In this document: in pieces, positions 2,038-14,234 of the stretch | Layout of the letters: every line of letters begins with the position of its first letter | Position numbering within the stretch: position 1 is the stretch's first letter | NCBI GenBank assembly: GCA_021775105.1 | Contig: JAJFIJ010000107.1 | Span: 1 to 37,619, forward strand | DNA: 37,619 nucleotides | DNA from: Rhodospirillales bacterium | GTDB taxonomy: Bacteria > Pseudomonadota > Alphaproteobacteria > Rhodospirillales > Casp-alpha2 | Reading direction: 5' to 3' | Translations under genes and position numbers: made by a program | The notes under the pieces: generated by a model | The model's database searches: none | Told to the model about the DNA's origin: nothing | What the model saw: the letters and a program-made list of their open reading frames with translations, nothing else

Positions 2038-2097
2038 ATGCGTATCGTTCCAGTTATCTCCCATCCCCATATCGGTGACCAGCGGAACGTTCGGGCT
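2038..2097 (-). pseudogene. Relic of the 3' end of polA (about 20 codons)
   Basis: Read on the minus strand, this short segment encodes VPLVTDMGMGDNWNDTH. It aligns with the C-terminus of the intact polA in this window, VPLVVDMGVGDNWDDAH. By eye, 46 of 60 nucleotides match 5615-5674 without gaps, and 14 of 20 residues match. Similarity starts right at the RES stop codon (2097) and fades after the histidine codon, where polA has its stop and the relic reads on as TTA TAC. It lies in the same orientation as polA, about 3.5 kb downstream of it. I read it as a leftover from integration, exchange or duplication at the polA 3' end. Chance similarity is unlikely because it covers the exact terminus in frame. 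Confidence 0.7.
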
Positions 2098-2654
2098 CAC
2101 GCAGATGCCCGGTTTTTGGCCCGCCAGTCGACCCAGTCAATCGGGCTTTCGGCGACCACGTTGAGGCTTTCCAGATTGAAACCGTCCAGAAACAGCACGA
2201 GGTTCTGACAATCGTACCGTGCGCTCGGCGAAAGGATACCGTCGAAGCCCATAAAGGCCGCCGCAGCCCCGATCTCCTGTGTCCGCGCATATAGCAATTG
2301 GGCGTATTTCGCCTCTTCCACGCCAAGGGCAACAAGATCGGCCATATTTAACAAGATCAGTGTCCGGTCCGTCACAGCATGCAGCTCAAAAAGATTGTGC
2401 CGCATTTTCGACGGAAACACAGATTGTCCACGGTTCAGATGAAAATGGATTTCGGCAATCGCTCCGTCGGCTGCTTGGGCGGAATAGAGAACACTCAGGT
2501 GCGACGGATTCCAGCGACCCGCGCCGCGCGACCCGTCCAGGACCGACCGTCCGTCCCTGACAACCCGCCAGATGGTGCCGCCAAAGGCGTGGCCGTCCAG
2601 CTCATCAAGCGCATCAAGCAGCCGATCATCATGGACCCGTCGCCCCACAGTCAT
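2097..2654 (-). CDS. RES-domain toxin of a RES-Xre toxin-antitoxin module
   Basis: RES-domain toxins bind and degrade NAD+, halting growth when their Xre antitoxin is lost. The three residues naming the family are visible in order: Arg in GTIWRVV (about residue 30), Glu in AIAEIHFHL (about 68) and Ser in SPSARYDCQNLVLF (about 144). The family motif GRWN is at 47-50. At 185 residues it is close to the usual 150-230. The start ATG directly abuts the antitoxin stop (TAA then ATG), so translation is probably coupled. It is third in a probable three-gene operon. No truncation or missing key residue is apparent. Its stop lies at the edge of the polA relic. NAD+ loss is known for the family and inferred here. 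Confidence 0.9.
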   Translation of the reverse strand: MTVGRRVHDDRLLDALDELDGHAFGGTIWRVVRDGRSVLDGSRGAGRWNPSHLSVLYSAQAADGAIAEIHFHLNRGQSVFPSKMRHNLFELHAVTDRTLILLNMADLVALGVEEAKYAQLLYARTQEIGAAAAFMGFDGILSPSARYDCQNLVLFLDGFNLESLNVVAESPIDWVDWRAKNRASA

Positions 2655-3011
2655 TTAGAGATAAACCCCACTGTCGAGGCGTTCGATCACTTCCAGAACC
2701 TCGGCCGAACGTCCCTCATTGATCAGGTCATAGGGTCTTTGCCCTTGCAGTTGCGGATGCGGCGACTGCAGCCAGAGGCGGACTTCGTCCGGTTCATAAA
2801 AATCGGACAGGCGCTCCGCCACCCATCGCAGCTCTGCGATAGTGGTCTGCTTTTCAATGGTCGGGGCACCTTCCCCCTGACTCCACCGCGTCACTGTCGG
2901 CGGCGATACGCCCAGAATATTGGCAATATCCCGGCCCTTCAGACCTCCAAACTCCTTCAGACCGGCAACCAGTCTTGATACGGCAGTTTCTTTCATGGCA
3001 ACATTAGTCAT
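2655..3011 (-). CDS. Xre/MbcA/ParS-type antitoxin partner of the RES toxin
   Basis: This 118-residue antitoxin is expected to bind and neutralise the RES toxin and to repress the operon. An N-terminal helix-turn-helix lies around residues 25-48 (GRDIANILGVSPPTVTRW). The C-terminal MbcA/ParS/Xre toxin-binding domain ends in RPYDLINEG and VLEVIERLDSGVYL, matching the family pattern for the segment that plugs the RES active site. The ATG at 3011 overlaps the end of the upstream 433-residue gene by 8 nt. AAGGA about 8 nt before it serves as a ribosome site inside that gene. A second in-frame Met at residue 6 is possible. Operator binding to the inverted repeat at 4323-4375 is inferred. Confidence 0.9.
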   Translation of the reverse strand: MTNVAMKETAVSRLVAGLKEFGGLKGRDIANILGVSPPTVTRWSQGEGAPTIEKQTTIAELRWVAERLSDFYEPDEVRLWLQSPHPQLQGQRPYDLINEGRSAEVLEVIERLDSGVYL

Positions 3012-4305
3012 GCCAAGGTCCTTTTTGAATTTTTACCCTGTCGCCCGAATGCCCTGACAATTCATTTGCAAAATTGGTTGGACCCAGCTGTTCGTGAAGA
3101 TTCGTTAACGTTTCTTCAAATCGAATAAGGCGGGTGTTAGCATTGGATATCTTCTTTTTTGCATCATCATCAATCTTTTTAAGATTCATTGCCCTGCCAG
3201 ATAGACGACGTGCTAGTTCAATGTGTTCAGAAATTAACCGGTCTGCACGCATGGTCTCTGGAGTTTGAGATAAATCACTAACTTGTCGACCTTTCTGAAC
3301 CATTAGATGAGCCTCTGGATAACTCAACATCCGTTCAATATCTCCACAACATGTATGGTCCGGACATCCGAACATCTCACGTGAAGTTCGGGCGTCTTCA
3401 AACATTTTCCGGGCATCTCTTATCTTAAGACGACGGTCCAGAGCTGGAATATAGACGGTCTTTACTTGCCCAAAAGAACCCTCCGTTTTCGGTTTCAGCC
3501 ATTCCTTTGCGGAAAATCGCTCTTTACCAGATATGCCATGAGAAAACCCACTCGAAGCTCCAAATGCACATAGAGCGAGAGAGGCGAGGCCCCCAACTTG
3601 ATCCGCGATGATTGGGCGTCCCAATGCATGAAAAGAAAACAAGCCCTTTATGCAACGCGCTACCGCAGCAGCTTTAGAATCTGCACCAAATCCAGAAATT
3701 CTCAACCAAAGACAATCAAACGGCATGTCGCGCAGACCATTGATCAAACCGTCTCGAAATTCAGGGTCACGGAACTGGGAATAGGTGATGATTAAAGGAT
3801 AGTCGATTGAAATTTCTGCACCGCCTTTGCGGTCAAGTGATTGACGCAATGCAATGCATGCGCGGCGGTCAACTTCAAACCAGTGATATTGATCTTCTCC
3901 GAGATAATGTGTCGGAGCCATGACCGAACTAATTTTCTTTTCAACAGCGAAATCAGCTACTTGATCAACTACAGTGCGATTTGTGCTCGGTATGAAGAAG
4001 TCGTCAATTTCAAGAGGACGATCCTTATTCGACCAAGGCGCCGCTCGAACAGCGCTGCTGAAACGACCGGGCGCACTCAGTTCAGCAACATTAGTGTCGA
4101 GAACAATTTCAGCATTCTCATCATGTATCGACCTTATCAAACTGGATTGGCGCTCAAAATTGGCAGCGTCAATTACAAAGCGTTGACCATCCAACTTACC
4201 CGCACTCAACAACTGTTCAGTTTGAACATGGTCGGAGTATCCAACGCGGGTAAATTGTGCAATCTGGCGAGGTCTACTGTGTAAGTAATGTATGTTTTGT
4301 GACAT
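3004..4305 (-). CDS. Unrecognised 433-residue protein, first gene of the RES-Xre operon
   Basis: I do not recognise this family. The protein has no signal peptide or membrane segment. Alternating strand-like stretches (RFVIDAANF, AEIVLDTNV, SVMAPTHYL, PLIITYSQF, DCLWLRISGFG, RPIIADQVGG) and the Gly/Ala-rich segment at residues 236-258 suggest a TIM-barrel-like fold. Near residue 314 comes a CPDHTCC motif, followed by His333 and His361 in a helical C-terminal part. This loosely recalls the zinc region of tRNA-guanine transglycosylases, but the spacing differs and the link is only a guess. A good ribosome site (TGGAGG, 6 nt spacing) precedes the ATG. The gene overlaps the antitoxin by 8 nt and is clearly AT-richer than RES, Xre and all neighbours, suggesting separate acquisition. 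It is real coding by length, ribosome site and operon fit. Confidence 0.8.
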   Translation of the reverse strand: MSQNIHYLHSRPRQIAQFTRVGYSDHVQTEQLLSAGKLDGQRFVIDAANFERQSSLIRSIHDENAEIVLDTNVAELSAPGRFSSAVRAAPWSNKDRPLEIDDFFIPSTNRTVVDQVADFAVEKKISSVMAPTHYLGEDQYHWFEVDRRACIALRQSLDRKGGAEISIDYPLIITYSQFRDPEFRDGLINGLRDMPFDCLWLRISGFGADSKAAAVARCIKGLFSFHALGRPIIADQVGGLASLALCAFGASSGFSHGISGKERFSAKEWLKPKTEGSFGQVKTVYIPALDRRLKIRDARKMFEDARTSREMFGCPDHTCCGDIERMLSYPEAHLMVQKGRQVSDLSQTPETMRADRLISEHIELARRLSGRAMNLKKIDDDAKKKISNANTRLIRFEETLTNLHEQLGPTNFANELSGHSGDRVKIQKGPWHD

Positions 4306-4322
4306 TCATATCCTCCATTTAT

Positions 4323-4375
4323 AATATTGCATAAAAATTTCATAAAATCAAGTCATGAAATTTTCATGCAATATT
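4323..4375. promoter_or_regulatory. AT-rich inverted repeat, candidate operator of the three-gene RES-Xre operon
   Basis: Two 21-nt arms (4323-4343 and 4355-4375) are reverse complements with one mismatch, separated by 11 nt. Each arm itself contains a 13-nt dyad: ATGAAATTTTCAT (perfect) on the right and ATAAAAATTTCAT (one mismatch) on the left, with centres 24 nt apart. The repeat ends about 18 nt upstream of the 433-residue gene's start and covers where its promoter must lie. AT-rich -35/-10-like hexamers occur but cannot be chosen with confidence. Autorepression by the Xre antitoxin is the simplest reading. The right arm touches the aminotransferase stop codon, so a role in ending that transcript is possible too. 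Confidence 0.6.
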
Positions 4376-5547
4376 TATCCAGTTGCCGCCACCTCCGCCG
4401 CCAGCAAATTCCTGAACACGTCAACGAAGCCCATAAAATCGGCTTCTTCGGTCACCAGCGGCGGGTCGATGCGGAACATGCCGCCTCGATTGCAGACGAT
4501 GTAACCCTGTTTCAGCAATCCCTCATATATCCGGTCACCAACCTCGCCATCGACGAAATCAATACCGTAGATCATTCCCCGTCCACGGACTTCGCGGATA
4601 TTGTTATCGTCGGTCAGGGTTTGCAGGGCGGCCAGAAACTTTTTGCCCTTGTCGGCAGCTTTCCGGATCAGGTTTTCATCGCGGAATACGGCAATAACCT
4701 CATGCGCAATAGCCGCGGCCATCGGGTCGTTCTGGTGCGACTGCATATATCTGAATGTGCCCTGTTCCAGCTCCTTCGCGGTGCGCCGGTTGATGGCGAG
4801 CGCGCTCACCGGATATCCGTTCCCGAGTCCTTTTCCCATACACAAAAAATCAGGGTCGATTTCGTAATGGTTGCAGCCAAACCATGCGCCGGTTCTGCCC
4901 ATTCCGGTGGTGACTTCATTGACCAGTATTTTGCCGCCTCGACCCTGGATCAGGCGTGTGATGTTTTTTATCAGGGATACGGGCGGAAAGCGGACGAAAC
5001 CGGACGCACTTCCCGGCTCGAAAGCGAAAATCGATACGGCGTCCGGAATGCCCTGCAACCTCGGACAATCGCTTTTGCAGTCCTCCCGGTCCGGACAGAT
5101 GGCGCATTCCTGCCAATCGAACTCAAACCAGCCGTCGCCGCGCTCCGTCGTTGCGCTGTATGATCCAAAATAGGCGTCATGCAGGCAGAGTGTGGCGGCG
5201 TCCGGCGCAATATGACGGCACATCTGACGCGCGAGTTCGACAGCCTCGCTGCCGGAGGACAAAAATACGCATTGCCCGGCGTCCATGTCGGCAATCGAGA
5301 GCACGGATCGGGCGGCTTGCTCAACAATGTTGCTCGAATAACAGAAACCGGTGTGAGCGATAGACTCAGCCTGCCTGGCCATGGCGGCATTGATTCTCGG
5401 GTGCTTGTGACCCAGCGGCAGGCACCATACCCCGGATTCCAGATCAAGATAGCGGTTTCCCCCGGCATCGACCAACCAGGCTCCGTCACTGTCGACAATA
5501 TCGGGAACTCGGATGTCATGCCCTGTGCAATTGAAAACGCTGCTCAT
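4375..5547 (-). CDS. Class III PLP-dependent aminotransferase with a four-cysteine insertion
   Basis: This fold-type I aminotransferase is of the acetylornithine/ornithine/GABA aminotransferase group, with unknown substrate. Seen from the ATG at 5559 (394 residues), it has SSGSEAVELA near 101, EPGSASGF near 181, NEVTTGMGRTG near 214 and CMGKGLGNGYP with the PLP lysine near 243. Two oddities stand out. CAICPDREDCKSDC (Cys 152, 155, 161, 165) looks like a metal or Fe-S knuckle. The usual Asp that contacts the PLP ring nitrogen is Asn214, a variant I believe also occurs in some subfamilies. I prefer the start at 5547 because GGGG sits 6-8 nt upstream. 5559 is the alternative. Codon use looks like the host's. 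It lies between polA and the RES operon, all on one strand. Confidence 0.85.
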   Translation of the reverse strand: MSSVFNCTGHDIRVPDIVDSDGAWLVDAGGNRYLDLESGVWCLPLGHKHPRINAAMARQAESIAHTGFCYSSNIVEQAARSVLSIADMDAGQCVFLSSGSEAVELARQMCRHIAPDAATLCLHDAYFGSYSATTERGDGWFEFDWQECAICPDREDCKSDCPRLQGIPDAVSIFAFEPGSASGFVRFPPVSLIKNITRLIQGRGGKILVNEVTTGMGRTGAWFGCNHYEIDPDFLCMGKGLGNGYPVSALAINRRTAKELEQGTFRYMQSHQNDPMAAAIAHEVIAVFRDENLIRKAADKGKKFLAALQTLTDDNNIREVRGRGMIYGIDFVDGEVGDRIYEGLLKQGYIVCNRGGMFRIDPPLVTEEADFMGFVDVFRNLLAAEVAATG

Positions 5548-5611
5548 TGAAAACCCCATTCTTGCTGCGAAGATCGGACCGTTCGCGATGATACCGTTGT
5601 GGCCAGTCTAT

Positions 5612-14157: not shown

Positions 14158-14234
<77 letters not shown>

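Follow-up and report, generated by a model that had tools for sequence, protein, structure and literature searches.

We identified a three-gene operon in which a 433-residue protein (hereafter X), which the inspected records label simply as a hypothetical protein, precedes an Xre antitoxin and a RES toxin. X, Xre, and RES travel and evolve together, and the cassettes are carried on conjugative plasmids and other mobile loci. Our favored but tentative interpretation is that X, the first cistron of this mobile operon, may act as a sensor or modulator of toxin release and not as an essential antitoxin.

A RES/Xre toxin-antitoxin pair preceded by a third gene

The operon lies in the window, by which we mean the whole 37,619-nucleotide stretch of DNA analyzed. 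Its features are:

2097..2654, (-) strand: RES-domain toxin (185 aa), PF08808 E 5e-17
2655..3011, (-) strand: Xre/MbcA/ParS-type antitoxin (118 aa), PF09722 E 4e-8
3004..4305, (-) strand: X (433 aa), first gene of the operon, open reading frame call with ATG start
3307-3309, (-) strand: codon of His333 of X, putative fourth ligand, from conservation
3346..3366, (-) strand: Cys motif CPDHTCC of X, residues 314-320, from conservation in 36 homologues
4323..4375, (-) strand: putative Xre operator/promoter, nested inverted repeats just before X
4338-4360, (-) strand: operator core TTTCA-N13-TGAAA, within the nested repeats

The PF08808 and PF09722 matches both exceed the gathering cut-off, and the antitoxin also matches NF049845 (E 4e-12), below the cut-off of that model. 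The active-site-like residues R30, R47, Y57, E68, and S144 are all present in the window toxin; position 144 is Ala or Asn in some relatives. These genes are a RES/Xre toxin-antitoxin pair, and an earlier note on this DNA was right to place X next to an NAD+-degrading toxin. RES toxins destroy NAD+, which leads to cell death or arrest; to our knowledge, the trigger that releases them is mostly unknown. The start of Xre and the stop of X overlap by 8 nt. On its 5' side, the operon is preceded by genes for a class-III aminotransferase and DNA polymerase I.

The putative operator consists of an outer inverted repeat (AATATTGCAT...ATGCAATATT) and an inner one (AAAATTTCAT-N11-ATGAAATTTT). A core of the form TTTCA-N(12-14)-TGAAA was found 5' of 25 of 31 operons, counting in the Pannonibacter operon that lacks X, and in 0.4-0.5% of shuffled or background stretches. 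In several of them, the arms match perfectly over 16-18 bp. The arrangement resembles that of Pseudomonas putida Xre-RES, which represses from an inverted repeat in its promoter (PMC12204516). Xre may bind the repeat in the window.

Distribution and co-evolution of the cassette

A tblastn search of plasmids detected X in 24 records at 21-41% identity, with the label hypothetical protein where the gene was annotated. Xre and RES adjoin X at all 13 inspected plasmid loci (the unannotated L014 was judged by its open reading frames). The apparent absence of RES from Gordonia bronchialis pGBRO01 was rejected as an annotation gap: an unannotated RES open reading frame (L044:2472-3041, (-) strand) lies beside the annotated Xre. 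Scans with the single X protein returned no relatives from genome contigs or viral contigs. For the genomes, a closer-knit alignment (A2) was required, and searching 84,980 species genomes with it revealed 19 further X loci; viral contigs and phage records yielded none. An HMM scan of open reading frames recovered the order X, Xre, RES at 19/19 genome loci, one of which (L042) is fragmentary.

Cassettes occur in Alphaproteobacteria, Actinobacteria, and metagenome-assembled genomes assigned to Eremiobacterota and Poribacteria. On actinobacterial plasmids (Gordonia, Mycolicibacterium, Rhodococcus, and Clavibacter), X is divergent from Xre-RES and still adjacent to it, and the X of Gordonia sp. 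SMJS1 links the proteobacterial and actinobacterial groups by sequence. X is rare, occurring in 3/385 genomes of the class versus 92/385 for any RES gene.

Protein distance matrices from 37 complete cassettes were strongly correlated (r = 0.95 for X and RES, 0.93 for X and Xre, and 0.92 for Xre and RES), with Mantel p values at the lowest level that 2,000 permutations allow and with shared host ancestry adding to r. In the Rhizobiales copies, the dN/dS of X was ~0.03-0.07 (NG86), indicating strong purifying selection. When 30 other alphaproteobacterial RES loci were compared with profiles of the X-linked Xre and RES proteins, the best score was at most ~30 bits; X-linked actinobacterial Xre and RES, which lay outside the profile set, scored >80 bits. 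On these sequence scores, the X-linked Xre and RES proteins are a subgroup of their own.

Rhizobiales cassettes adjoin plasmid repABC, transposition, or integrase genes. On Roseobacter-type plasmids the neighbors include a type IIG restriction-modification protein, an MzaB-like ATPase, QatA, and Gabija. Such mobile-element and defense-gene neighbors suggest a role in stability or defense. In a Dinoroseobacter shibae plasmid (L018:7235-10379), GajA and GajB of Gabija lie directly downstream of X-Xre-RES; the same place is taken by QatA in L017 and by the type IIG protein in L015.

Loss of X and dependence on the pair

Close relatives of the window toxin were found in 16 plasmid records, 14 of which contain X. 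The other two are Pannonibacter plasmids, and the one inspected retains the operator and the first codons of X, followed directly by Xre-RES. In two genomes (G032 and G115), X is internally deleted and the Xre-RES behind it is intact. The toxins of Pannonibacter, G032, and G115 all keep R30, R47, Y57, E68, and S144. As Xre and an active-site-intact RES were kept in these three cases, which are few and of which two come from draft genomes, X is probably not required to restrain the toxin.

Conversely, no intact X was found at a locus without Xre and RES sequences among the loci recovered. On contigs of sufficient length for a judgment, X always had Xre and RES as neighbors, the exception being Rhodococcus ruber, where X is decayed. 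In G365 (L022:257-1080, (-) strand), RES is in pieces beside an intact-looking X and Xre, so that X without a working toxin looks to occur, at least transiently. Since X depends on an Xre/RES locus and the pair survives the loss of X, the simplest reading is that X acts through the pair. Conserved yet dispensable to Xre-RES, X suggests itself as a candidate for either the missing input or a tuning device of these toxins.

Predicted fold and putative metal site of X

Sequence searches assigned X to no family: there were no matches in Pfam or NCBIfam, and only insignificant ones in PADLOC, PHROGs, and PDB sequences (best E 0.03, 0.19, and 0.08, respectively). PDB sequence matches to phosphoribosyl-anthranilate isomerase and MutY (E 0.1-0.5) were treated as noise; the former is likewise a barrel.

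An AlphaFold2 model of X, built with 19 aligned relatives, had a mean pLDDT of 86.3 and a pTM of 0.87. It shows a (beta/alpha)8 barrel followed by a beta-hairpin, the Cys loop, and a C-terminal helical domain of three long helices. The strands, in barrel order, are residues 16-21, 42-46, 66-70, 127-129, 166-174, 198-204, 232-235, and 253-257, as expected from the possible TIM barrel that the earlier note had read from regular strand-like segments. A second model, of a divergent Eremiobacterota relative, had a pLDDT of 84.8 and unchanged topology. The predicted barrel fold is secure.

In a Foldseek search of the PDB, the best 50 matches to the window model were all tRNA-guanine transglycosylase (TGT; E 1e-6 to 1e-5), aligned over the full length at 11-14% identity with TM-scores of 0.41-0.56. 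TGT is heavily represented in the PDB, so these 50 amount to one family matched many times. The best matches in the BFVD viral library were uncharacterized phage proteins, with annotated queuine tRNA-ribosyltransferases at ranks 9, 15, and 31. With the Eremiobacterota model, TGT matches span ~430 columns and pyruvate kinases score higher over the barrel only. The likeness to TGT that the earlier note had proposed therefore holds for the window model, of which TGT is the nearest solved fold, and is weakened by the second model, which favors pyruvate kinase barrels.

We aligned 36 X homologues and compared their conserved residues with those of TGT. The motif C-x-D-x2-C-C-x12-H (C314, C319, C320, and H333) is complete in 31/36 relatives, lost as a whole in 4/36, and represented by three of the four residues in 1/36. 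The four copies without it form one clade of related marine Rhodobacterales, probably reflecting a single event. Retention or loss as a set is consistent with a metal site, and the three Cys and one His in the C-terminal part of X may form a Zn site, judging from conservation. His361, which the earlier note had listed with these residues, is not conserved and was rejected as a metal ligand; the other four stand. By strand order, the putative site falls after strand 8, with the ligand His at the start of a helix. Sequence and predicted secondary structure support a position topologically equivalent to that of the TGT Zn subdomain. The spacing is unlike that of classic TGT, as had been noted before: C-x4-C-C-x12-H in X versus C-x-C-x2-C-x25-H in the TGT Zn motif.

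The TGT landmarks used here are the nucleophile Asp280, Asp102, and the strand order of the family. Asp is found at the Asp280 position in 0/36 X members, which have His, Asn, Ser, Phe, Thr, or Val there (placed by strand order, with no superposition). X is not a TGT by this test because the nucleophile is absent. Asp70 closes strand 3 in all X members but one, L043, which has Glu; the L041 sequence is truncated at this position. Its context, G-x-E-I-x-L-D-T, would correspond to TGT Asp102 and to GAKIFLDSGAF of phage 9g DpdA, an equivalence by strand order only. Further conserved strand-end residues are H133, W200, R202, and D235, several of which vary outside the proteobacterial group. The last 25 residues of X have a mean charge of +3.8, with a pI of ~9 in most members; the window copy is neutral.

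Profile comparisons gave no membership in either the TGT or the DpdA family. PF01702 (TGT) had no match at E 1 to X and 14 other members. The PADLOC DpdA profile, which does detect true bacterial DpdA, did not match X, and HHalign of the X profile against 41 TGTs was not significant (P 0.05; 2 of 200 column-shuffled decoys were higher). No genes for 7-deazaguanine (preQ0/preQ1) synthesis or Dpd proteins were found beside the inspected cassettes, whose conserved neighbors are Xre and RES only. Together with the Zn spacing and the missing nucleophile, the profile results speak against the TGT/DpdA membership suggested earlier. The enzyme idea survives as a modeled structural resemblance without family membership, and a specific kinship of X to TGT is plausible but unproved.

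Comparison with known systems

The cassette shares the order of an Xre/MbcA/ParS antitoxin followed by a RES toxin, and the conserved R, E, and S/A residues, with MbcTA, NatRT, ParST, P. putida Xre-RES, and GndRX. RES-Xre modules are enriched on plasmids (PMC2701414). Those described in the open-access literature that we consulted have two genes, whereas here a barrel gene precedes the antitoxin behind the same operator. We found no description in that literature of a three-gene RES-Xre system or of a TGT combined with a toxin-antitoxin system, and the X-Xre-RES variant thus appears to lack a published description. Three-component systems such as HigBA-SecB and HipBST likewise combine a toxin-antitoxin pair with a third co-transcribed gene; they differ in that X is an unrelated barrel, encoded first in the operon, and the RES toxin degrades NAD+.

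X resembles TGT (PF01702) in its predicted barrel, in the Cys/His subdomain after it, and, going by strand order, in the Asp that closes strand 3. It differs in sequence (~12% identity, no profile match), in lacking the Asp280-type nucleophile, in its Cys/His spacing, and at the C-terminus, where it has an additional long helix and most members also have a basic tail. DpdA, of both the phage 9g and the bacterial Dpd type, is alike in having a TGT-like barrel, L-D-[ST] at strand 3, and a mobile conflict context, but differs from X by profile and by its 7-deazaguanine/Dpd gene neighborhood.

Possible roles of X

The reading that we favor, tentatively, is that of a modulator. Xre, alone or with RES, would repress the whole operon from the conserved repeat upstream of X, and RES would deplete NAD+ once Xre is removed. 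The polar barrel pocket of X (D70, H133, R202, and D235), with the basic tail, would bind a signal, either a nucleic acid or a nucleotide, and X would then act on the Xre-RES complex and set the moment of toxin release. We base this on the linkage, the co-evolution, the operator in 25/31 operons, the asymmetry of loss, the defense context, and the basic tail, the last argument being weakened by the neutral tail of the window copy. X could equally be an enzyme. A more specific version, which we consider improbable though not negligible, is that X derives from TGT, no longer performs base exchange, recognizes a base or nucleic acid instead, and triggers the NAD+-depleting RES in a plasmid-borne defense or stability system. 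If true, a barrel shaped like tRNA-guanine transglycosylase would have gained a new job.

X could instead serve as an accessory antitoxin or a chaperone-like partner, stabilizing Xre or buffering RES in the manner of SecB in HigBA-SecB (TAC) systems. The shared operon, the X/Xre translational overlap, seen in the window and also in several further cassettes, and the co-evolution with both partners agree with this; the loss of X at least three times with Xre and a catalytically intact RES retained indicates that protection is possible without it, and with its size of 430 aa, its barrel, and its conserved polar pocket, X does not look like a known toxin-antitoxin chaperone. On balance we regard such a role as rather unlikely. 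That dispensability, in three lineages, also counts against an enzyme acting on RES chemistry (ADP-ribose-1''-phosphate, nicotinamide, or an ADP-ribosylated target) that would tune or reverse the damage. The placement of D70, H133, R202, and D235 at C-terminal strand ends resembles an enzyme pocket, and X is strictly associated with RES, but family searches linked it to none of the known NAD-salvage or ADP-ribose enzymes, and we think this role unlikely.

We give slightly less credence still to a divergent TGT/DpdA-type base-exchange enzyme acting on DNA or RNA with RES as its effector arm. TGT gave the best full-length fold matches, BFVD phage proteins annotated as queuine tRNA-ribosyltransferases also match, Asp70 sits at the end of strand 3 like its TGT and phage 9g DpdA counterparts, and the three Cys and one His follow strand 8. 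Set against this are the absent Asp at the Asp280 position, the different Zn spacing, the lack of profile support, and a putative Zn site that is gone in one whole clade. The inspected cassettes also have no preQ0/preQ1 or Dpd genes beside them, and tolerance of X loss is at odds with a self-marking enzyme. Finally, X can be lost, as would a passenger hitch-hiking with the mobile RES-Xre pair; its adjacency in both arrangements, co-directional in Alphaproteobacteria and divergent in Actinobacteria, its correlated evolution (r = 0.95), and the strong purifying selection make this very improbable.

Other observations in the window

The GC content of X is 45%, compared with 56-58% for Xre and RES. 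The three genes are alike in GC in most other cassettes, making the window X compositionally odd. The class-III aminotransferase immediately 5' of the operon (4375-5559, (-) strand) contains an inserted Cys-rich stretch (CAICPDREDCKSDCP) that may be a metal or Fe-S site. A tRNA-Arg(CCG) gene at 14158-14234 on the (+) strand is the sole tRNA and the sole Rfam match in the window.
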